Both the position numbers and the translations under genes were made by a program. Below are positions 6,431 through 18,477 of a DNA stretch of 43,510 bases, one piece after another; the first letter of the stretch is position 1, and every line of letters starts with the position of its first letter. The notes under the pieces are model-generated. The model searched no databases, was not told the DNA's origin, and saw only the letters and a list, made by a program, of their open reading frames with translations. Source of the stretch: Akkermansiaceae bacterium (GTDB lineage: Bacteria > Verrucomicrobiota > Verrucomicrobiia > Verrucomicrobiales > Akkermansiaceae). The stretch covers positions 1 through 43,510 of the forward strand of contig JABDMC010000045.1 of assembly GCA_013001695.1 (NCBI GenBank), written 5' to 3'.

Positions 6431-9400
6431 ATGCGTTCAACCACGAGATCCCTTCATCCAGCTTCGTGGGGCCCGCGTCTTACCCTCGTGCTGCTGGCCG
6501 CCTTCCTGGGCGCTTGTTCCGAGAAGGACGAGTCGTCCCGGCACCTCGAGCGGGCCGACAAGTTGGCCGCCAAGGGGGACTTCAGCGCGGCGCGCATCGA
6601 GTACCGCAACGTCCTGAAGCATGCCCCCCAAAACGGGCGAGCTCTCCGTCAACTGGGGAGCATCTGGACGGCTGATGGCGCGCCCCTCCGGGCCCTGCCC
6701 TACCTGCTGCGCGCTCGCGACCAGTCGCCCTCGGACGCCGCCGTGCGGATGGATCTTGCGCGGACGCTCCGCGCGTTGGGAAAGGGCGCCGAGGCCCGCG
6801 AAGAGGCCAAGGCCGTCCTCGAGCAGCACCCGGCGCACGAAGAAGCCGTCCTTTTGCTGGCAGAAACCGCCCGGACCGAGGAGGAGATCCGGGAATGCCG
6901 CGCTCACCTCGAGCAGGCCGGCATCGAACCGAAATCGGGGCCGGCCTACCACCTGGCACTGGCGCTTCTGGCGATGAAGGAATCAAACCTCACCGCGGCG
7001 GAAAGCGAAGCCCAAAAGGCCCTCGCCCTCGGGCCCGATTCATACCACGCCCATCTTGCCATCGCGAGGATCCGGGAAGCTCAGGGAAGCATGAAAGCGG
7101 CCGAGACGGCTCTCGAGGATGCCGTGGAATTCGCGCCAACCCGGTCTCACGCGCGAATTGAAATCGCCAACTTTCACCTTCGGCGCGGTGATCGCGCGAA
7201 AGCGCGAGAGGTGCTCGAGGCGATCAAAGCAGCCACTCCCGGGTATCTCCCCGCTGCGAATTCCCTCGCCATGATCGCGCTTCGGGAACGGGACCTCGAG
7301 CGTGCCCTCAAGGAAACCAGCCACGTCCTCGCGCGCGATCGCTCCAACTATGACGCCCGCATGTTGAAAGCCCAGGCGCAACTCGCGATGGGAAACCCAA
7401 CCGAGGCAGTCGCCACGCTCGAAGAGCTGGATGCGCAATTTCCCGGCCTCCCGCCGACGAAGATCCAGCTGGCGCGGACCTACGCCCGGGAGGGCCGCAC
7501 CGGCAAGGCGCTGGCCACCCTTGGACACGTGCTGGAGCGCTACCCCATGCACCAGGAGGCGCGCTTGCTCGAGGCGCAGCTCCGCCTGCAGAACGGCGAA
7601 CCCGCCGCGGCCATCGAGTCGATGTCCTCCCTCTTGCGGAGCGAGCCGAACCTGCCGATGGCCAGGACGCTCCTGGCCCATGCCTACAGCGCGGCCGGCC
7701 GGTTCGACGAGGCTCTCGAGATTCACCGGGCCCGGACGCAGGAGTTCCCGGAAAATCCCGAGTCCCACATCATGGTGGGCCTGATCGAGCGAATGCGCGG
7801 CCATGCGGATGCGGCGAGGACGGCTTTGCTGCGCGCCGAGGAGCTGGCGCCGGGATTGCCCCTCGTTGCCGCGCAGCTGATCGGGCTCGACCTCGAGGCG
7901 GAAAAGCCGGACGCCGCCAGGGCGCGCAGCGAGCGCCTCCTGGAGGCCCACCCCGACTCCGCGGCGGCCCATTTTCTCAAGGCCAGCATCGAGGCGCACG
8001 TCCGCAACTGGGACGTGGCGGAGGACACCCTCAAGAAGTGCCTCCAGCTGGATCCGGACTACGGGCGGGCCTATGCCATGCTGATCTCCATCTATCTCGA
8101 GACGGAGCGGCTTGAGGAAGCCCGGCGGGAATTGGGCGACTTCCTGGCGAAGGACCCTGACAACCCGGCGGCCCTGCAAAGACTCGCCTCAATCGAGCAG
8201 CAGCTTGGTGATATCCCGGCGGCCACGAAGAACTACGAGGCCGTGCTGGCCGTCGCTCCCGATTCATCGGTGGCGCAGAATAATCTCGCCGTGCTCTACC
8301 TCGCACACGGCGGCCGGACCGAGGAGGCGTATCAGCTTGCGATGAAAGCCCGCGTTGCCAATCCGGACGATGCCGCCATCGCGGACACCCTCGGCTGGAT
8401 CGTGTTTCACCGCGGGGAGTATCGCCGTGCGCTCGCCCTCCTGGAAGAGAGCAGTTCCCGGCTCGGCGACAACCCCGAGGTCCTGTATCACCTCGGACGC
8501 GCCCGCCAAGCCATGGGCGACGTCGACGGGGCCCGATCGGCATATACCGCCGCCCTCGCTGCCGCCCCGCAATTCGGCGGCCGCACCGAGGCGGCGCTTC
8601 AACTCGAATTGCTCGACGCGCTCGAGACCCGGCCGCCGCCATCCACGAAGGCCTTGGAAGATCTCATGGCACGGCACCCCAAGGACCCGGTGCCGCGGCT
8701 CGCCCTGGCGGCCAGCCTTGAACGAGCGGGGAAGTCAGCGGAGGCCGCAGCGCTCTATCATGGCGCGCTGGAGCTCAACCCCGACCTCCTCCCCGCCCAC
8801 ACGGCCCTGGCGCGGCTCTACTCGGGCTCGCTGGCGCGGCCGGAACAGGCTCTCGCCCACGCCAAGGACGCCCGCGCCCTCGCGCCGGAGGACGTCGCCG
8901 TTCTCGCCACCCTGGGCGCCTCGGCGCTCGAGGCCGGAAAGGCGGACTGGGCCTACAACCTTCTCAAGGAGAGCACCCGGGTCGATTCGGACGACAGCGG
9001 TATTCTGGTCACGCTGGCCCGGTCCGCCTACCGGACCGGTCGGGCCGCGGAGGCGGAGGCGGTGATGAATCGGGCGCAGGAATTGTCGAAGGGCGGACCG
9101 GAAGCGGAGAACATCGACACCTTTTTGCGCATGCTCCGTCTCGTGCGGGATCCTGACCGGCTGGTTGCAGCCGACGCGGAAATCGAAGAGGCCCTGCAGC
9201 GTGATCCGGCCCGCCTCCCCGCCCTCATGGCCGGGGCGAAGGCCAGCGTCTTGAAGGGCCGTCAAGACGCGGCGAAGACGGCCTACCGGGAAATCCTGGA
9301 ATCGGCGCCCGGGTTCTCTCTCGCGCAGATTGAGTTGGCATTTCTTCTCTCCCGCAGCGGGGACTCGACCGACCTCGAGGCTGCGGCCGAAATGGCGAGA

Positions 9401-9670
9401 AATCTCCGCGGCCGGATGTCCGGCGATTACCGCGTCGCGGTCCTCGCCGCCGAAGTTTGCTACCGGCAAGGCGACTTCGCCGGCGCGATCCGCCACCTCG
9501 AGGAAGCGCGTCGCCACGGAGACCTCGAAGCCGAGGCCCTCGCGATTCTCGGTCTCTCGCAGCAGGGAGCAAACGAGACCGTGGAAGCGGCAACCAATCT
9601 CCGCAAGGCGCTCGACGCCGGCCTGACCGGACCTCTCCTGGAAGAGGCGCAGGAATCTTTGCCGCGCTGA
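6431..9670 (+). CDS. prsT: PrsT-like TPR-repeat lipoprotein of the PEP-CTERM/exosortase system
   Basis: Predicted membrane lipoprotein acting as a protein-protein scaffold. The N-terminus has a basic region, a hydrophobic stretch and lipobox LGAC with the acylated cysteine at residue 29. The rest of the 1079 residues is an almost uninterrupted array of tetratricopeptide repeats. The first (AAKGDFSAARIEYRNVLKHA) matches the opening of TIGR02917 (PrsT) proteins, which accompany exosortase and PrsK/PrsR. It is somewhat longer than the roughly 900 residues I recall for the family. A PrsR-like regulator and an exosortase lie in the same window, which supports the assignment. A plain TPR lipoprotein is the alternative. 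Bases 6220-6430 upstream show no clear promoter. Confidence 0.75.
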   Translation: MRSTTRSLHPASWGPRLTLVLLAAFLGACSEKDESSRHLERADKLAAKGDFSAARIEYRNVLKHAPQNGRALRQLGSIWTADGAPLRALPYLLRARDQSPSDAAVRMDLARTLRALGKGAEAREEAKAVLEQHPAHEEAVLLLAETARTEEEIRECRAHLEQAGIEPKSGPAYHLALALLAMKESNLTAAESEAQKALALGPDSYHAHLAIARIREAQGSMKAAETALEDAVEFAPTRSHARIEIANFHLRRGDRAKAREVLEAIKAATPGYLPAANSLAMIALRERDLERALKETSHVLARDRSNYDARMLKAQAQLAMGNPTEAVATLEELDAQFPGLPPTKIQLARTYAREGRTGKALATLGHVLERYPMHQEARLLEAQLRLQNGEPAAAIESMSSLLRSEPNLPMARTLLAHAYSAAGRFDEALEIHRARTQEFPENPESHIMVGLIERMRGHADAARTALLRAEELAPGLPLVAAQLIGLDLEAEKPDAARARSERLLEAHPDSAAAHFLKASIEAHVRNWDVAEDTLKKCLQLDPDYGRAYAMLISIYLETERLEEARRELGDFLAKDPDNPAALQRLASIEQQLGDIPAATKNYEAVLAVAPDSSVAQNNLAVLYLAHGGRTEEAYQLAMKARVANPDDAAIADTLGWIVFHRGEYRRALALLEESSSRLGDNPEVLYHLGRARQAMGDVDGARSAYTAALAAAPQFGGRTEAALQLELLDALETRPPPSTKALEDLMARHPKDPVPRLALAASLERAGKSAEAAALYHGALELNPDLLPAHTALARLYSGSLARPEQALAHAKDARALAPEDVAVLATLGASALEAGKADWAYNLLKESTRVDSDDSGILVTLARSAYRTGRAAEAEAVMNRAQELSKGGPEAENIDTFLRMLRLVRDPDRLVAADAEIEEALQRDPARLPALMAGAKASVLKGRQDAAKTAYREILESAPGFSLAQIELAFLLSRSGDSTDLEAAAEMARNLRGRMSGDYRVAVLAAEVCYRQGDFAGAIRHLEEARRHGDLEAEALAILGLSQQGANETVEAATNLRKALDAGLTGPLLEEAQESLPR

Positions 9671-10071
9671 ACTTCCCGGCGGCAGGGCGCTCCACAGCGG
9701 CCGCGGTTATTGACACCGACCGGTCCCACTATCGGACGATCACGCGAAGAAGGAGAAGAAGCGGGGTGTCGTCTCCCTCCCCCGTCGTCCCGAACTTTTG
9801 TCCGGATCGTCGTCGCGTGAAGTGTTCTACTGACCGCCGGTGGACGGTTGAGAGCCTGTAATTTCGCCCTTGCACAGGTACGGCAGATTGGTTTTACGGG
9901 GGGGAATCGTTGTTACCCAGAAATTTCACCCACCGCGACGCTGTCAGCATCGACAACACCTGAAGAAGGGTGCTTCGTTGCATCGACGAAGCAGCCGCTC
10001 CGCCCAATGCCGCCGGGTGCGGCGATTTTGCGCACGCCGCCCGCTGAAGTGCGCGCCGTCAACGGAACCGG
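9671..10071 (+). other. 401-bp non-coding stretch with hairpins before the FN3 gene
   Basis: No coding frame is convincing here. The last 110 bases carry two successive hairpins: TGCTTCGT/ACGAAGCA (9971-9993) and GCCGC/GCGGC (10009-10023), the latter followed by ATTTT. This could be a leader or attenuator of the gene at 10072. TTGACA occurs at 9710-9715 but without a credible -10. Confidence 0.4.
9971..9993 (+). repeat. Perfect 8-bp inverted repeat (hairpin) upstream of the FN3 gene
   Basis: TGCTTCGT (9971-9978) is repeated inverted as ACGAAGCA (9986-9993) across a 7-base loop TGCATCG. It could be an RNA hairpin in the leader or a dimeric operator. A GG-N10-GC pair at 9968-9981 with a good TTGCAT half overlaps it, but the -24 half is poor. 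Confidence 0.45.
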
Positions 10072-11514
10072 ATGAATCAGTTCAGCGCCCGTGGGAACGC
10101 CGTATGCCCAACCGCCCGCCCGCCCATGCCCCGTCGTGGTAACGCCCCGATTGTCCGGAACGCTTTCGCCCCCGCAGCATTACTGGTCTTCCTGTCCGCC
10201 ATGTCACCGCTGGCGGCTGACACCTCGGTCCGCTTGTCGTGGAATCCCGTGTTGGAGCCCGGGGTAACCGGATACCGCGTCTACTACGCCACCGCTCACG
10301 GGGGAGAGGAACATGGAATGCAGGTCGGCAACCAGACCACCGCCGTGCTCCGCGGCCTCGCGCCGAGTACCACCTATTCGATCCACGTCACGGCCTACAA
10401 TATCTTCGGTTTGGAGAGTCCGCCATCCGACCGGGTGGTCTTGCACACCGAGCCCGAAAACTTCCGCATCAAGCTTGATGAGCTCGGGGTGAACTTGACG
10501 ATCGATGGCAAGTCCGGCGAAAGCTACGATCTGCTCGAATCGGAGGACCTGCAAACTTGGCGCAAGTTGAAGACCCTTCACAACCTCACGGGCACCTGTC
10601 ATTTCTTCCGGCCGGTCGACGTCGATGAACACCCGCGGCGCTTCTATCGTCTCGAACCGAAGGGGGAGACTTTCCCGGTGTGGATGGCCATGGCCGGACG
10701 AAGCAACCCGCTTGCCGATGACAACGGCGATGGAATCAGCAATCTGGTCACCTACGGGACGGGGGCCGACCTGTTGTCCAGTCCCCGCGAGGCCCGCCTG
10801 GAGACCAACCTTGCACAAGCCTGGGTGTCCGGGGAATTGTCCCGGATCGTCACGGTGAGTTACACCTTGCGGGAGAACCTGTCCGGGGTGATCCCCATTC
10901 TCGAGTGCTCGACCGACCTGCAGACCTGGGAAGATGCGCGGGAATTCACGATCGTGCTTTCAACGACCTCGAACGGCAACGGGACCCATACCGTCACGAC
11001 CCGGCTTCCCCACAGTCCGGGCCAGAGTCCTTCCCGGGTCTGTTTCTACCGGCTTCGCTTCCAGCTGGAAACTCCCCCCGCTCCCCCGCAGTCGTTCTGG
11101 AATTGGATGGCGGCGTGGAACCGGATCGATCCCTACACGGACGACGACGGATATGGCCTCAACAATATCCTCACCTATGCGAGCGGGGCCGATTTGACAT
11201 CCGGCCCGCGCGGCGCCCTCCTTTCACTGGATACCGCCATGTTCACGGTCGGCGGGGTGCGCAGCCGGTATCGGGTATTCAATTACGACCTGCGGGAACA
11301 TTTGACGGAACTGACGCCCGTGTTCCAAACCTCGACCGACCTCGAAACATGGCACGATGCGCATGATTCGACGGTCGAGATTTCGAGCTTTTCGAACGGG
11401 GACGGCACGCGGTCGATCTATGTGCGGGAGGCGGCCCCGGCCTCCGGGTCCCCGGATCCGCGGCGGTTCTACCGGCTGCACTTTCCGCTGGATATCGGCG
11501 GGACGACCGAGTGA
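10072..11514 (+). CDS. Secreted FN3-domain protein with two tandem verrucomicrobial-type repeats
   Basis: Function unknown; predicted to be exported. A signal sequence (FAPAALLVFLSAM...LAAD) ends near residue 50; the ATG at 10126 would give a more standard length than the one at 10072. Residues 52-135 form an FN3 domain (SVRLSWNPVLEPGVTGYRVYY). Two similar units follow at about 203-330 and 343-470. Each begins with WMAM/WNWMAAW and D-D-N/D-G, runs through an LVTYGTGADL or ILTYASGADL motif, and ends with a strand block STDLQTWEDA / STDLETWHDA and FYRLxF. A third half-unit lies at 140-195. There is no membrane anchor or sorting tail. It converges on prsR. Confidence 0.65.
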   Translation: MNQFSARGNAVCPTARPPMPRRGNAPIVRNAFAPAALLVFLSAMSPLAADTSVRLSWNPVLEPGVTGYRVYYATAHGGEEHGMQVGNQTTAVLRGLAPSTTYSIHVTAYNIFGLESPPSDRVVLHTEPENFRIKLDELGVNLTIDGKSGESYDLLESEDLQTWRKLKTLHNLTGTCHFFRPVDVDEHPRRFYRLEPKGETFPVWMAMAGRSNPLADDNGDGISNLVTYGTGADLLSSPREARLETNLAQAWVSGELSRIVTVSYTLRENLSGVIPILECSTDLQTWEDAREFTIVLSTTSNGNGTHTVTTRLPHSPGQSPSRVCFYRLRFQLETPPAPPQSFWNWMAAWNRIDPYTDDDGYGLNNILTYASGADLTSGPRGALLSLDTAMFTVGGVRSRYRVFNYDLREHLTELTPVFQTSTDLETWHDAHDSTVEISSFSNGDGTRSIYVREAAPASGSPDPRRFYRLHFPLDIGGTTE

Positions 11515-11647: not shown

Positions 11648-13015
11648 TCAGCACCTCCGGGACTTTTCGCGCTCGATTCCCAGCTTGTTCATCAGCTCAT
11701 ACAGGGTCGGCCGGCTGATCTCGAGGGCTGCGGCCGCTGCGGTGACCTTCCCGCCGTGCCGCCGAAGGGCGCGCTCCACCAGTTCACGTTCGACCTTCTC
11801 GCGAGCCTTGCGAAGGGTGAGCGGCGCCGCCTGGGCGGCGAGATCGGCGAGCTCCATGTCCTCGATCGTGATGCGTTTGCCCTCCGCCATGATGACCGCG
11901 CGCTGCACGCGGTTTTGCAGTTCCCGGATATTTCCCCGCCAGCGCGCCACGCGAACGGCGTCCAGCGTCTGTGGCGCGAACATCAATCCGCTTGCACGGA
12001 TCTGCTCGGCGAACCTCTGCAGGAAGTCCTGTGCAAGGAGGACAACATCCTCGCCCCGCTCGCGCAGGGGGGGGACCCGGCAAACCACCACGGCCAACCG
12101 GAAGTAGAGATCCTCCCGAAAAGTGCCTTCCCGCACCTGTTCCTCGAGATCGGAATTGGTCGCGGCGAGGATGCGCGTTTCCACCTCGACCTTGCTCCGC
12201 CCGCCGACCCGCTGAACGCGATTGTCCTGAAGGAACCGCAGCAACTTGACCTGAACCGGCGCCGGGAGGGCACCAACCTCGTCGAGAAACAGGGTTCCGC
12301 CGGACGCGGATGCGATGAGCCCCTCCCGCCGCGTGAGAGCCCCCGTGAAGGCCCCCTTCTCGTGACCAAACAATTCACTTTCGAGGAGGTGTTCCGGGAT
12401 CGCGCTGCAATTGATCGCAATGAAGGGGCGGCTTGCGAGGTAGCTGCGCCGGTGGATGGCACGGGCCACCATTTCCTTTCCGGTCCCGCTCTCCCCGAGA
12501 ATCAGCACGGGGACGTTCGAATCCGCCACCTTCCGAACGGTCGTGAAGAGCTCCCTCATCGCGGGGCTCTTCCCGATCATTCCCTCAAAGCAGGTTTCCT
12601 CTCCTTGTTCCTGGCCTTCCCGGTGCTCCCGCTCGAGATTCGCGACGTAGATGCAACGCTGCAGCAAGAACTGCAGCTTCTCGACATTGACCGGCTTGCA
12701 ATGAAAATCGGAGGCGCCCGCTCCCACCGCACGCACGGCGTTGTCCCGTTCCTCCTGCCCCGACACGACAATGACACGCGCGAACCGGTCCAAGGAGAGG
12801 ATACCCGAGAGGGTCTGCATCCCTTCGTCGGGCAGGTGGGGGTTCGGGGGAAGCCCGAGATCAAGGAGGGTCACCGCGGGTCGCCCGGCCTTGAATTGCT
12901 CCAGGGCGCTGAGGCGGTCCTCGGCTAACAGGATTTCGTAATCATTCCCCAGAGCTCCGATCATCTGGGTGCGGATTCCCTCGCCATCGTCAACTATCAG
13001 AATGCTTGGCTTCAT
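11648..13015 (-). CDS. prsR: PrsR-like sigma-54-dependent response regulator
   Basis: Transcription activator, probably for exosortase/polysaccharide genes. Domain order in 455 residues: receiver domain (acidic pair D9/D10, phospho-acceptor D52, S85, K107), AAA+ sigma-54 interaction domain (Walker A GESGTGKE at 174-181, GAFTGA loop at 221-226, Walker B GGTLFLDEVG near 240) and a C-terminal Fis-type helix-turn-helix (AAAALEISRPTLYELMNKLG). An intact GAFTGA means it should contact sigma-54. The architecture and the PrsT/exosortase neighbours fit TIGR02915 (PEP-CTERM-box response regulator). Its start lies three bases after the stop of a histidine kinase remnant, so the usual kinase partner seems lost. 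An NtrC-type regulator of another process is the alternative. Confidence 0.85.
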   Translation of the reverse strand: MKPSILIVDDGEGIRTQMIGALGNDYEILLAEDRLSALEQFKAGRPAVTLLDLGLPPNPHLPDEGMQTLSGILSLDRFARVIVVSGQEERDNAVRAVGAGASDFHCKPVNVEKLQFLLQRCIYVANLEREHREGQEQGEETCFEGMIGKSPAMRELFTTVRKVADSNVPVLILGESGTGKEMVARAIHRRSYLASRPFIAINCSAIPEHLLESELFGHEKGAFTGALTRREGLIASASGGTLFLDEVGALPAPVQVKLLRFLQDNRVQRVGGRSKVEVETRILAATNSDLEEQVREGTFREDLYFRLAVVVCRVPPLRERGEDVVLLAQDFLQRFAEQIRASGLMFAPQTLDAVRVARWRGNIRELQNRVQRAVIMAEGKRITIEDMELADLAAQAAPLTLRKAREKVERELVERALRRHGGKVTAAAAALEISRPTLYELMNKLGIEREKSRRC

Positions 13016-13018
13016 CTG

Positions 13019-13180
13019 TCATCTGGGTTGTGTTCGGGTAAGGGTGACACGAAATTCGGTTCCCAAGCGCGGCGGACCCTGGACACTGGTCTTGCCGTGA
13101 TGGGCTTATGTGATCTTCCTGGACTGGAGCATCCCGATACCAGGTCCCCCGCTCGTCGCGGAGCGCAAGGGCCTGAGATG
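13019..13180 (-). pseudogene. Decayed histidine kinase C-terminal end (PrsK-like remnant)
   Basis: Read on the minus strand, one frame gives GGPGIGMLQSRKIT, a stop (TAA, 13106-13108), then AHHGKTSV...LGTEFRVTL and a final stop at 13019-13021. The two parts together match the G2 box and end of a histidine kinase ATPase domain (GTGIGL-x-x-SRKI-x-E-AHHG ... GTxFxVxLP). The stop falls where a glutamate is usual, so a single GAA-to-TAA change would explain it. The end lies three bases before prsR, the usual kinase-regulator arrangement. Upstream the frame gives no ATPase N box or full kinase. I infer a broken prsK; an assembly error is the alternative. Confidence 0.6.
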
Positions 13181-13574
13181 GGCATCTGTCACGAACGGCA
13201 CCTGGTTGAGCCGGATTGCGGCAGTCCTCCTTGTGCGGGATTTCGCAATCGTTGTCCCGTGAAGCGGTGAGAGGCTGGCAAGGTGCGGGTGCGGGAGATG
13301 GGTGCCAGCCCGATGACGACATGGCTTGTCCGCCACCGGGCCGTGCCGACGAAAGCGCGGAAGGTGTCTTCCAGGTTCACCAGGGGATGAAGGACGCCGG
13401 GAATCAGAATCGAGCCAGGGAACTTGGCGGGTGGCCGGGCCCGCGCCGGCGGACGTCAACCCCATCGCCGGAATGACCAGCCAGTCGGGCGGCCCGGCTG
13501 CGGCCGGTGGCATGGTTGTCGGGCCGGGCTTTCCGGACGCCCCCCCGCCCTTCCCTTGAGTGGACGGCGCGGCC
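13181..13574 (-). other. Non-coding stretch, probably the rest of the decayed kinase gene
   Basis: No intact gene on either strand. On the minus strand around 13330-13400 a different frame reads VLHPLVNLEDTFRAFVGTAR, which loosely resembles a histidine kinase dimerisation/H box (HDLxNL...). It lies too close to the ATPase end for an intact kinase, so deletions and frameshifts would be required. This is speculative. Confidence 0.35.
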
Positions 13575-15305
13575 CTAGAATGCGACTTCAATGCCCAGGA
13601 CGCCCTGCAGGCGCTTCCAGTCAGAGACCCCGGAATTCCCGGACCATTGAAGGGACGAGTTGAGCACGACATCCTGGCCGGAAAGAACGCGGACGTAGTC
13701 GATCGCCAGCCGGTAGCCGTCCGAATCACGGGAGGCCGGTGCTGCTCCGAAAACCGAATCGAACTGGGTATTGGTGAGCGTCCCGCGACATGTCAGCGAG
13801 CCGCGCGGGAGTTTCCTGGTGGCCGCCAACTGCAGGGTCCGGTCGTTCACGGACACGCCGCTCGCGCTCGGCGAGGGGTTCGTGCTGACAAAGACGGTGC
13901 CGTCGAGATTCCAATCGTTGCTTGGCGTGTAGATGCAGGACAGGCGCCCCGTCAGCCGTTGGCTCCCCCCTCCGACCTGACCGAATTCGGTGACGACCGC
14001 CTGGTTGATGGCTGCATACCCGAGACCGCCTTCCAGGATAATCCGGTTGTTCGGCTGGTAGCTCAGGTCAACTGCACCCGTGAACCCCGCGCTATCGCCG
14101 GATGAAGCGGTGCCGTCGGCTTGCTCCACCCCGGCTGAGATCTGGATGGTGAAGGCCTCGTCGGGGGTGTAGGCCGCCACCGCGCTCAGGGCCCACGACG
14201 AACGATCCCCCAGCGCCCCCGAGCTGGTCTCCACGTGGCGGATGGAAGGGCCGACATTCAGAAAGGGCGAAGCCCGCCAGAAAGCCGTGGCGTTCAGGAC
14301 GTAGGTCTCGGAATCCGACACCCCCACCCCGTCGTCCTCCCGGGAAAAGGCCTGCCAGGCCGCCTCGAGAAAGGAACGGGCGGAGATATCGTAGAGGGCA
14401 TCCACCACCAGACCGTAACTCTGCCTGTCGACGCGGGTTCCCACGATGCGGTCCGCCACCGAGAACTTCCCAAAGTCGAGGGTGGCGGCGATCTCCCCTT
14501 TGGCCCCTCGGAAGCGGGCCTCGATCTCGGCGCTGTGATCGATGGTATCCAGGCTGGATTCGTCGAGGTAGCGGCGGACCAGGGGCATGTAGCGGGCCGT
14601 CACCACACCCCGAACCTCCTCGGGCGCGGACCGGAATTCAAAGGTCGGGGACAGGAGGGCGGCAAGGTCGGAATCTTCGCCGCTCTCCTCGAGGAACAGG
14701 TTTGAATCGTACAAGACGCTCGCGCCCAGGCTGAACCGGAATCCTTGGCGCAACAAGGGAGCCCTGACCGGGAAAGACAGGAACTCTTCCGTCAGAACGC
14801 GGGAGCTGAACCTCTCGCGGGGAATGACCCAGCTTTCAGTGTCCTCCAAGCTCTGGTCCGCAAGGCGGTCATCGATGAAGCTCAATTCGTCGGACAATTC
14901 CTCCTCGGTATCCGGCTGGCGCTCGAGCCAATTCCGCACCTCGCTCAGGGCGGGATCTTCGACGGGGGGGTCATCGAGCTCCCCGGGGTCGGGGGTATCC
15001 GGCGACGCGTCCTTTTTCGGAAGCGCCCCCGCGTCATCGCCGGCCCGGTCCTCCGGACGCGGGGGAGGCAGCATCAGCGGGTCACCCGGAAGCTCGGGCG
15101 CCGGAAGGCCGTTCTCCGGAGGATCGGCGGGTTCCTCCTCGTCCTCGAGGCCCACCAACTCGGCGGCAGGGGAAGAGCGATCGACGCCCTGCGTGCGGGC
15201 CGCCGGTGCGAGGCACCACAAGCAGACGCCAGACATCCACGCTGCCATCGCGACTGCGCGGCCCGCAGTGGCGTCAACGATCGCGGGTTGTCGGCGAATC
15301 CTCAT
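13575..15305 (-). CDS. Outer-membrane beta-barrel protein of the exosortase/polysaccharide locus
   Basis: Predicted outer-membrane barrel. The N-terminus from the ATG at 15305 gives a signal peptide (GRAVAMAAWMSGVCLWCLAPAARTQG). An acidic, proline-rich linker to about residue 160 comes next (EDEEEPADPPENG, GDPLMLPPPRPED). The remainder is alternating amphipathic strands with many Y, R, S and aromatic girdle residues (GFRFSLGASVLYDSNLFLEE, NNRIILEGGLGYAAINQ). It ends in ...GIEVAF with C-terminal phenylalanine, the BAM recognition signature. A GTG at 15407 with GAGAGG upstream and a 4-base overlap with the preceding gene is an alternative start that adds 34 residues. Its role may be like the barrel proteins that accompany EpsH/XrtA loci. 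Confidence 0.75.
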   Translation of the reverse strand: MRIRRQPAIVDATAGRAVAMAAWMSGVCLWCLAPAARTQGVDRSSPAAELVGLEDEEEPADPPENGLPAPELPGDPLMLPPPRPEDRAGDDAGALPKKDASPDTPDPGELDDPPVEDPALSEVRNWLERQPDTEEELSDELSFIDDRLADQSLEDTESWVIPRERFSSRVLTEEFLSFPVRAPLLRQGFRFSLGASVLYDSNLFLEESGEDSDLAALLSPTFEFRSAPEEVRGVVTARYMPLVRRYLDESSLDTIDHSAEIEARFRGAKGEIAATLDFGKFSVADRIVGTRVDRQSYGLVVDALYDISARSFLEAAWQAFSREDDGVGVSDSETYVLNATAFWRASPFLNVGPSIRHVETSSGALGDRSSWALSAVAAYTPDEAFTIQISAGVEQADGTASSGDSAGFTGAVDLSYQPNNRIILEGGLGYAAINQAVVTEFGQVGGGSQRLTGRLSCIYTPSNDWNLDGTVFVSTNPSPSASGVSVNDRTLQLAATRKLPRGSLTCRGTLTNTQFDSVFGAAPASRDSDGYRLAIDYVRVLSGQDVVLNSSLQWSGNSGVSDWKRLQGVLGIEVAF

Positions 15306-15403
15306 GAGTTCGGGGTTAGCAAAGCCGCCACTTCGTAGCAAGGCTGGTTTCCGGGCGCCGGGAATCGTCCTCCGCCGGCTTGAAATCCCGCGAAGCGGCT
15401 GCT

Positions 15404-16036
15404 TCACCAGCGCCTCTCGGAGACATGGATGATGTCGTAGGGGGACAGGTAGAACGCGCCACCGCCCCGTTCACCGATGAGATTCAAGTCGTAGCGCCGG
15501 CGGGTTCCCTTGTGGGTGCGCATCACGGTCACCTTCCGCGGGTTGGCGGAAGGGGAAAACCCTCCGGCTTCCATAATGGCTTCGAGGGCGGTCATCGGGC
15601 GGGTGAGCGGAATCTTCGAAGGCCGGAGTACCTGGCCGCTGACATAGACCGCCGCCGCCACCTGGTCGAGAATGACGATGACCTCCGGATTCCTCAAATG
15701 GGGGCGATAGCGACGCTCGAGGTCCCGCTGCAGCCCGGACACGGATTTCCCGGCGGCGCTCACGTCCCCGAGGATCGGCAGACTCACGGTCCCGTCGGCC
15801 CGTATTCTCTGCCCCATGCTCAGTTCCGTGGCGCCGGGAAACGAGAGGCTGATCACATCGCCCGGGGCGAGGATGCTGCCCTTGCTGGAACCTTCCGCCA
15901 CCTGCGGGATGGGTTCCTGCACGACTCCCGGTGCAAATTCCGTGCAGGCCGCCATGCTGAGCGCGGCCAGGCACAAGACCAGTATGCCGAACCTCCGGCC
16001 GATGACGGGATGTTCGACTTGCTGCTTATTGTTCAT
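15404..16036 (-). CDS. Wza-type polysaccharide export lipoprotein
   Basis: Predicted outer-membrane/periplasmic lipoprotein that helps carry polysaccharide across the envelope. Lipobox MAAC places the acylated cysteine at residue 31. A poly-export domain follows (LAPGDVISLSFPGATELSMGQ, RADGTVSLPILGDVSAAGKS) and then one SLBB-like domain (VYVSGQVLRPSKIPLTRPMTALEAI). At 210 residues it is about half the length of E. coli Wza and lacks its extra domains, as in EpsA/XrtA-type exporters. It overlaps the exosortase gene by 11 bases, and the beta-barrel gene is next. No Wzc/chain-length regulator accompanies it. Confidence 0.9.
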   Translation of the reverse strand: MNNKQQVEHPVIGRRFGILVLCLAALSMAACTEFAPGVVQEPIPQVAEGSSKGSILAPGDVISLSFPGATELSMGQRIRADGTVSLPILGDVSAAGKSVSGLQRDLERRYRPHLRNPEVIVILDQVAAAVYVSGQVLRPSKIPLTRPMTALEAIMEAGGFSPSANPRKVTVMRTHKGTRRRYDLNLIGERGGGAFYLSPYDIIHVSERRW

Positions 16037-17027
16037 TTTTCTGTGGGTTGTTTCTTGATGCTCGGATTTCGCTTTGCCGGAGAAACAAGGCCACCATGGC
16101 CAGGATTCCAGCGGCCGCCGCGAAGAACAGGGGTCCTCCCTCGCGGTGGATGAAGCTGTTGATCATGTGAGGTCCGTGGTGCACGCAGAGCAGTGCGATC
16201 ACGAGAATTCGCACCGCGTTTCGAATGATGCTCAGCGGAACCACGATCAGGAGGAGCAGGGCCTTTCTCCAGCGCGAGGCGAGGAAAAGGTGGGAGGCCA
16301 GGGTGCCGATGATCAAGAGGACCCAGGTCGACCGGATGCCGCTGCACTCGGTCGCGATCTCGAGCGTGATGCCCGGAACCTCGAACACCAACCCTTCGCG
16401 GAAGAAGGAAATCCCGGCCCACTCGAAGAGAACCGGAACAACCTCCCCGGAGGCCATGATGAGGGCCTTCTCCACTGCAGCGGCCATGGCGTCGGGCATG
16501 GGGATCATGAAGGCCAGGAAGCAGAACGGGAACGCCATGGCGCGCATCCATTTCCGGCCCATGAGGGCAAAGCCTCCGGCCGCCACGAAACACACGTAAG
16601 ACGCCGTCCCAACGGCAAGGGCGTCATTCGCACTCAATAGGATCCCGTCGTGCCGGCGGGCCAGGAAGAACGCCAGCGCGGCCACCCCGGCGAGGGCGAA
16701 GAATATCGCCCCGGACCGGCGGGGAGACGACGCCGCGGGACTTTGGTGCCGGTTCGTCCAGAGGAGCCAGCCGGAGATGACGGGAACGAGGAGGATGTGC
16801 GAATGCAGTTCGTGAGCGAGGGCATGCCGCCCGAGCTCCACGAGAAGCCACCCGTAGGAGGCGGTCAGGACGGCAAGGTAGACGATGAGGCGCCCGCCCT
16901 CCGGGAGGGGAGGCCGCATCCGGGCCCCGCCGCGGGGGCTCCCGAGGTTCCCCTTGGGAATCCCCGGTTCGGAGGCACCCGCCTGTCGCGATCCCTCCGC
17001 GGCCTCCAAATATTGTTCCGATGGCAT
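16026..17027 (-). CDS. xrt: Exosortase (EpsH/Xrt family)
   Basis: Inner-membrane cysteine protease/transpeptidase that cleaves C-terminal sorting signals. The 333 residues begin with a charged cytoplasmic stretch to about 45, then eight or so hydrophobic segments. The signature catalytic residues are visible: ATECSGIRS with Cys228, RNAVRI with Arg273, and SFIHREGG with His294. The position between a UDP-sugar dehydrogenase and a Wza-type lipoprotein is the usual polysaccharide-linked setting. I cannot assign the subtype; no PEP-CTERM, VPDSG or similar substrate tail occurs in the window, so targets must be elsewhere. Confidence 0.92.
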   Translation of the reverse strand: MPSEQYLEAAEGSRQAGASEPGIPKGNLGSPRGGARMRPPLPEGGRLIVYLAVLTASYGWLLVELGRHALAHELHSHILLVPVISGWLLWTNRHQSPAASSPRRSGAIFFALAGVAALAFFLARRHDGILLSANDALAVGTASYVCFVAAGGFALMGRKWMRAMAFPFCFLAFMIPMPDAMAAAVEKALIMASGEVVPVLFEWAGISFFREGLVFEVPGITLEIATECSGIRSTWVLLIIGTLASHLFLASRWRKALLLLIVVPLSIIRNAVRILVIALLCVHHGPHMINSFIHREGGPLFFAAAAGILAMVALFLRQSEIRASRNNPQKNEQ

Positions 17028-17073: not shown

Positions 17074-18477
17074 TCAGGCTTTCCACACCTGTCCGTCGGC
17101 GGTGTCGGTGCCGCTCATGGCGTTCCGCGTGTCGACAATGCATTGCGCCCACGCAGCGAGGTCCCCGAATCGGATAGCGTTGTGAGCGGTGGCTATCAGG
17201 ACGAGGTCGAAGCTCTCGATGGTCTTGCGGTTCCACTCGACGGACTCCTTCCCCGCCCACGAGGCGTGCTCACGGGTCATTCCGATCACGGGGACATACG
17301 GATCAAAATACTCCACCGCCGCTCCCCCCTCGGCGAAGAGCTGCATCAGCGCGTAGCTTGGCGATTCCCGCTCGTCGTCGACGTTCGGCTTGTAGGCCAG
17401 ACCGATCAAGAGGACCCGGGACCCATTCACCGACTTGCCATGGGCGTTGAGCGCATCAATGGCGCGGCTCATCACGTAGCGGGGCATCGCGGAATTGATT
17501 TCCCCGGCCAGCTCGATAAATCGCGTGTCTTGAGCGAACTCGCGGGCCTTCCACGTCAGGTAGAACGGGTCGATCGGAATGCAATGTCCTCCCAGTCCCG
17601 GGCCCGGATAGAATGGCATGAAGCCGAAGGGTTTCGTCTTCGCGGCCTCGATCACCTCCCAGATGTCGATCCCCATGGCGGCGTAGACCACCTTCAGTTC
17701 GTTGACGAGGGCGATATTCACGCTGCGGAAGATGTTCTCGAGGAGCTTGGCAGCCTCGGCCACCTGGCACGAAGCCACCGGGACGAGGTGATCAAGCGCC
17801 CGGCTGTAGAGCTTCATCGCCTTTTCGAGGCAAGCCGGGGTGTATCCGCCGACCAGCTTCGGCACGCTGCCCACCTTGCTGGCGGGATTGCCGGGATCCT
17901 CCCGTTCGGGCGAGTAGGCCAGGTGAAAGTCCTTCCCGGCGGTCATCCCCGATCCCTCCTCGAGGACGCGACGGAGTTCACCCTCCGTCGTGCCCGGGTA
18001 GGTCGTCGATTCGAGCGCCACGAGGGTCCCCGGTGCGAGGTGGGCCGCCACGGACTCCGCGGTCTTCAGGACGTAGGAAATGTCCGGATCCCGGTGTTTT
18101 CCGAGTGGCGTCGGCACGCAGATGACCACCGCCGATGCCTCCCTCACACGGGAGAAATCGGTGGAGGCCGCCAGCCGCCCGATCCGGCGCAGTTCGGACA
18201 CCGCCCTCGACTCGATATGCTTGATGTAACTGGTTCCCTCGGTGAGGAGCCGCACCTTCTCGGGATCGATATCGAGACCCAGCACCCTGAGGCCGACGGA
18301 GGCAAACTGCATCGAGAGCGGCAGGCCGACGTAACCAAGGCCGATCACAATCACATCCGCGGTCCAAACCTGTGTCTCGGCGGCTACGGCAGCCGCCGGC
18401 GCTCCGGCGGGCAGCGGTGCCTTGACCTCGGAATCGGATGCACACGAGAGAGATTTGTCCGGCTGTTTCGTCTTCAT
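17074..18477 (-). CDS. Nucleotide sugar dehydrogenase (UDP-N-acetyl-glucosamine/mannosamine 6-dehydrogenase type)
   Basis: Oxidises C6 of a UDP-hexose to the uronic acid with two NAD+. The 467-residue protein has a 38-residue extra N-terminus, an NAD-binding Rossmann start (DVIVIGLGYVGLPLS, 41-55), STTYPGT, and the catalytic segment GPGLGGHCIPIDP with Cys299. The C-terminal UDP-binding domain has LIGLAYKPNVDDERESPS. The ESTTYPGTTE and LAYSPERxDPG segments fit the WbpA/WecC group better than Ugd. No UDP-GlcNAc 2-epimerase is in the window, so the substrate is uncertain. It precedes the exosortase gene with a 46-base gap. Confidence 0.9.
   Translation of the reverse strand: MKTKQPDKSLSCASDSEVKAPLPAGAPAAAVAAETQVWTADVIVIGLGYVGLPLSMQFASVGLRVLGLDIDPEKVRLLTEGTSYIKHIESRAVSELRRIGRLAASTDFSRVREASAVVICVPTPLGKHRDPDISYVLKTAESVAAHLAPGTLVALESTTYPGTTEGELRRVLEEGSGMTAGKDFHLAYSPEREDPGNPASKVGSVPKLVGGYTPACLEKAMKLYSRALDHLVPVASCQVAEAAKLLENIFRSVNIALVNELKVVYAAMGIDIWEVIEAAKTKPFGFMPFYPGPGLGGHCIPIDPFYLTWKAREFAQDTRFIELAGEINSAMPRYVMSRAIDALNAHGKSVNGSRVLLIGLAYKPNVDDERESPSYALMQLFAEGGAAVEYFDPYVPVIGMTREHASWAGKESVEWNRKTIESFDLVLIATAHNAIRFGDLAAWAQCIVDTRNAMSGTDTADGQVWKA

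Follow-up and report, generated by a model that had tools for sequence, protein, structure and literature searches.

Relics of a prsK kinase gene beside an intact prsR in an exosortase locus of an Akkermansiaceae bacterium

The window (the whole stretch of DNA analysed, 43,510 nucleotides from an Akkermansiaceae bacterium) carries an exosortase cluster in which prsR, encoding a sigma-54 enhancer-binding response regulator of 455 aa, lies intact on the minus strand (11648-13015), and in which a prsK pseudogene, made up of relics and eroded DNA, occupies the same strand between prsR and the preceding ORF (13019-13574). The genes ahead of the pseudogene are likewise on the minus strand: a 610-aa ORF (13575-15407) with no Pfam or NCBIfam match, which, judged by eye, looks like an outer-membrane barrel protein; a polysaccharide export protein (15404-16036) related to TIGR03027 but below its cut-off; an exosortase nearest to XrtC (16026-17027), which scores 238.7 bits with TIGR04151 (below the cut-off of 300) and 109.3 bits with TIGR02602 (over the cut-off); and a nucleotide sugar dehydrogenase (17074-18477; TIGR03026, 404.6 bits). 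On the plus strand, opposite prsR, stands an intact prsT for the TPR lipoprotein of the PEP-CTERM system (6431-9670; TIGR02917, 500.2 bits against a cut-off of 312.2). The genome as a whole retains RpoN, PrsT and four exosortase-like genes (two over cut-off), and its sorted proteins comprise 32 PEP-CTERM and two VPDSG-CTERM matches.

A preliminary description of this DNA had read the minus-strand frame ending at 13019 as the G2-box and tail of a histidine kinase ATPase domain, interrupted by an in-frame stop and itself closing three bases ahead of prsR. On re-reading this holds: the last part of the frame consists of GGPGIGMLQSRKIT, a TAA at 13106-13108, AHHGKTSVQGPPRLGTEFRVTLTRTQPR and a closing TGA (13019-13021), three bases before the prsR ATG (13013-13015). 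The C-terminal relic proper (13040-13198, minus strand), with F-box region, G2-box (GPGIGM) and HATPase tail, does match the ATPase domains of PrsK when aligned to them; pairwise searches gave 40-45% identity to the PrsKs of relatives with E down to 1e-8 (45% over 53 aa, E 5e-8, against the C-terminus of one of them), and a frameshift-tolerant profile scored it at 98.7, whereas none of 40 dinucleotide shuffles exceeded 29.9. A second, N-terminal relic in another frame of the minus strand had been overlooked. It was detected by profile and pairwise similarity and represents part of the 7TM sensor region; the frameshift-tolerant profile scored 88.1 at 13285-13383 (shuffle maximum 35.1), where the translation LVNLEDTFRAFVGTARWRTSHVVIGLAPISRTR, with the core VNLEDTFRAFVGTARWRTSHVVIGL, matches the 7TM sensor consensus LVNLEKTFRSAVGTMRWRVKFLVLGLGIIFGVR, and pairwise searches widened it to about 13249-13410. 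It corresponds to PrsK residues of about 149-204, HisKA_7TM spanning residues 9-232 in a relative's PrsK.

Both relics were also recovered unprompted when the whole genome was searched with a PrsK profile (C-terminal, 13031-13195, E 6.5e-10, with one TAA; N-terminal, 13282-13392, E 3.7e-7). A 7TM-region piece and a HATPase piece, arranged as in PrsK and found where PrsK would lie, mark them as PrsK in origin. They are 40-61% identical to relatives, compared with means of 60-68% among the relatives themselves in the same segments. From 13574 to 13411, where ~164 bp stand in place of ~148 expected residues, no similarity was detectable. GC content hardly varies between codon positions across the pseudogene span (0.65/0.66/0.68); the values are 0.70/0.43/0.79 in prsR and 0.66/0.51/0.79 in the next gene.

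Measured from the coordinates of the flanking relics against the PrsKs of relatives, a deletion scar of ~50 bp (13199-13248, minus strand) replaces ~442-456 residues, or ~1.33 kb. The missing stretch comprises the rest of the 7TM region, the GAF domain, the DHp domain with its phospho-acceptor His, the N-box and the G1-box, and the counterparts of a relative's H501 (DHp), N608/N612 (N-box) and D640/G642/G644 (G1-box) all fall inside it; of the ATPase domain only the G2-box end remains. The relic thus lacks the DHp histidine, N-box, G1-box and open frame of a PrsK. We conclude that prsK is destroyed and that the kinase is dead whatever the status of the TAA, which is incidental because the catalytic core is absent. 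A sequencing error at the TAA, raised as an alternative in the preliminary description, can be ruled out: relatives have intact kinases, yet here ~1.33 kb is missing together with the catalytic core, for which one miscalled base is insufficient. That the organism has a full prsK and the contig is wrong at this point is highly improbable. The assembly, in 399 contigs at 97% completeness, gives this idea some room, but two eroded relics in different frames, the missing 1.33 kb, the stop and the lost codon periodicity do not add up to one error; moreover, the relics are diverged rather than cut pieces of a good gene, and the PrsK profile found no stray PrsK fragment elsewhere in the genome.

Relocation of prsK within the genome was considered and rejected. 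No match in the genome exceeded the TIGR02916 cut-off, and a profile built from the PrsKs of seven relatives gave, apart from the relics, only hits confined to kinase-core positions, the best at 127.6 bits; the PrsKs of relatives score 343-379 bits. The nearest of these kinase-core matches, C371 and C5, were considered as orphan-kinase candidates. The earlier proposals that prsK decayed in this lineage and left its regulator without a cognate kinase are therefore supported, by the two relics, by the loss of ~1.33 kb and by the failure of both searches to find another PrsK. In eight related loci (L029, L041 and L116-L121) the prsK coding sequence lies directly ahead of prsR, in many cases adjoining it or running into it; seven of the eight copies are full length, and that of L029 reaches the contig edge. 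Two PrsKs of relatives that were tested are over the TIGR02916 cut-off, as are those of further genomes. An adjacent kinase is the usual state of PrsR loci across the phylum, the exceptions seen being G456 (with PrsK on another contig), a second PrsR copy in G636, and L030 of genome G647; a close PrsR was absent from the sampled members of the genus to which the window belongs.

The surroundings of the pseudogene also differ from those in relatives. In L116, L117, L118 and L121, a relative of the fibronectin-type gene at 10072-11514 stands divergently just before prsK, and prsT, wherever it is visible on the contig, usually comes after prsR in the same orientation. In the window, the fibronectin-type gene separates prsT from prsR (6431-11514), prsT is inverted, and the prsK relic is preceded by another ORF. 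One could envision from this arrangement that a rearrangement may have broken the locus at the 5′ end of prsK, which would strip the gene of its promoter and start.

The usual companion of PrsR is thus present at this locus as a pseudogene only, not as a working gene. PrsR itself is intact. Called PrsR-like in the preliminary description, it proves to be a true PrsR, with 552.7 bits for TIGR02915 against an equivalog cut-off of 502.6; it has REC, AAA+ and Fis-type HTH domains (Pfam Response_reg, Sigma54_activat and HTH_8) and keeps the receiver acid pair, acceptor Asp, Ser and Lys, the Walker motifs and GAFTGA. Among 20 PrsRs placed on a tree, its sister (support 97/92) is that of L121, a member of the same family that has an intact PrsK; the end branches are 0.67 for the window and 0.61 for L121. 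The PrsR of the window has three private changes at otherwise invariant columns (0-4 in the others). We reject the notion that prsR is a pseudogene on the open frame, the kept motifs and the branch length; that its product is active, we infer. Its 14 non-conservative departures at conserved columns are, however, the most among the 20 (others 1-12), and six of its departures at conserved columns lie in the receiver, against a maximum of three in any other. Half of these six (D11G, K19I and W20G) are in alpha-1, the receiver helix that sets kinase partnering and holds partner-specificity residues (PMC2991266), and further departures reach the AAA+ domain (E235A, E249A and P360R). A strong claim of clustering in alpha-1 was set aside as weakly supported, with hypergeometric P values of 0.013 over all conserved columns and 0.049 within the receiver for an interval picked after the changes were seen. 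The excess of departures is modest, and relaxed constraint and a change of partner would account for it about equally well.

Our preferred reading, to which we assign a probability of about one in two, is that PrsR has been maintained as an orphan, takes its phosphate from another donor and governs a shrunken regulon. In this account, prsK, formerly directly before prsR, was destroyed by deletion of its middle ~1.33 kb, sparing only the G2-box end of the catalytic core, its 5′ part was eroded or cut off, and the stop and frame changes are present; PrsR, with receiver, sigma-54 ATPase and HTH intact, was retained as an orphan response regulator. It would now receive phosphate from a non-cognate kinase or a small-molecule donor through loosened docking specificity, and would act on fewer exosortase-linked sigma-54 promoters than before. 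The persistence of RpoN, PrsT, the exosortases and the PEP-CTERM proteins speaks for this reading. Loosened docking is suggested because the receiver departures are in excess and three of them lie in alpha-1 with the partner-specificity residues. No donor kinase for PrsR was identified, and no PrsR target was identified; both count against a maintained orphan. So does the spread of the excess of departures into the AAA+ domain, because of which relaxed constraint on the whole protein fits as well.

The latter observation bears on a close rival, in which loss of prsK came first and PrsR has since been drifting, its frame still open but of no more use, as its input and sigma-54 targets are gone. 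We regard such drift as possible though doubtful. Consistent with it, departures at positions conserved in the 20 PrsRs are most numerous here and include conserved AAA+ residues, and the TIGR02915 score is the lowest among primary PrsR copies. Against this, the branch length is similar to that of the sister L121, the receiver chemistry, Walker motifs and GAFTGA are intact, and prsR has no frame lesion although the adjoining prsK has lost most of its length; the divergence of the relics from relatives implies that some time has elapsed, during which PrsR has stayed unbroken. Decay of PrsR is a third outcome, beyond the two named in the preliminary description, namely service by another kinase and constitutive action.

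Drift would also be consistent with the absence of recognisable targets. Neither VPDSG-CTERM gene of the genome has a sigma-54-like site beyond chance upstream, whereas some in relatives clearly do. Such a site stands before one of these genes in G296 and before one or two in G073, with 10 of 11 positions matched in both genomes, and before one in G088, with 11 of 11. G088 has a further perfect site ahead of a gene that is next to prsR and is not itself a VPDSG-model match. Among PEP-CTERM genes of the window's genome the best sigma-54-like site matches at 9 of 11 positions, and none is higher. The upstream scans of VPDSG-CTERM and PEP-CTERM genes thus named no PrsR target, although a missing consensus match is not proof of absence. 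Exact matches to the sigma-54 consensus genome-wide proved uninformative, with two in the genome and two in a reversed control. In relatives that keep PrsK and PrsR, sigma-54-like sites of 10-11 of 11 occur upstream of genes of the sorted-protein type (L120:4235-4250, L206:958-973, L213:2232 and L203:2125). Among the papers searched, none treated VPDSG together with exosortase.

Alternatively, PrsR could act without phosphorylation, either because its unphosphorylated form is active enough or because it is activated by abundance, leaving its genes constitutively on. The absence of an intact PrsK from the genome searches is in keeping with this, and kinase-free PrsRs can evidently arise: the second PrsR copy in G636 (L171, the same gene as L177:7561-9111) has no adjacent kinase and has lost both the acid pocket, through D10R, and the acceptor Asp, replaced by E, and with 19 departures at conserved receiver columns and only three in the AAA+ domain it looks phosphorylation-independent. 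The PrsR of the window, however, keeps all of the receiver chemistry residues, which a regulator of this kind would not need, and we consider such action improbable here.

Loss of the kinase may not be confined to this lineage. In L030, from an Opitutaceae MAG (G647), a PrsR 55% identical to that of the window is encoded at 8001-9338, with no PrsK in the genome, which may be incomplete, at E ≤ 1e-40 and with no kinase relic beside prsR; this is possibly a second kinase loss. A broader proposal would join these cases, holding that PrsR was rewired after loss of PrsK, with alpha-1 changed and an unrelated kinase driving the exosortase-linked genes, and that PrsK has been lost more than once in Verrucomicrobiota (in the window, in G647 and, with a phosphorylation-dead second copy, in G636). 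Taken as a whole we think this rather unlikely.

The locus is a natural experiment on how the PEP-CTERM/exosortase system is regulated, with the sensor gone and the regulator and sorting system kept, and it suggests that caution is necessary before the PrsK signal is assigned to every PrsR locus. Should PrsR prove to have been rewired, the altered alpha-1 helix would illustrate in nature how a regulator parts from its partner.

Compared with the described PrsK/PrsR system of PEP-CTERM/exosortase loci (TIGR02916/TIGR02915; Haft et al. 2006, PMC1569441), the window is alike in its PrsR equivalog with the kinase, here a relic, directly before it, and in having PrsT, exosortase and exopolysaccharide genes at the same locus; it differs in having only a pseudogene for the kinase, PrsT on the opposite strand and an XrtC-like exosortase. 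L030 resembles the window in a PrsR with no PrsK found in its genome and differs from it in having no kinase relic. The nearest studied parallel is RisA of Bordetella pertussis, whose adjacent risS is a pseudogene, which is served by the unlinked kinase RisK, and some of whose functions belong to the unphosphorylated form (PMC5020355). There, as in the window, the regulator is intact and the adjoining kinase a pseudogene, but RisA belongs to another regulator family, and risS carries a frameshift whereas the kinase of the NtrC-type regulator described here is reduced to scraps. In Francisella, kinase pseudogenes with kept regulators are found among orphan or broken two-component genes (PMC6584805), similar to the window in that combination but in other families and another biology. 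Kinase loss beside a kept regulator is thus already known elsewhere, and the window provides a clear if rather unremarkable example.
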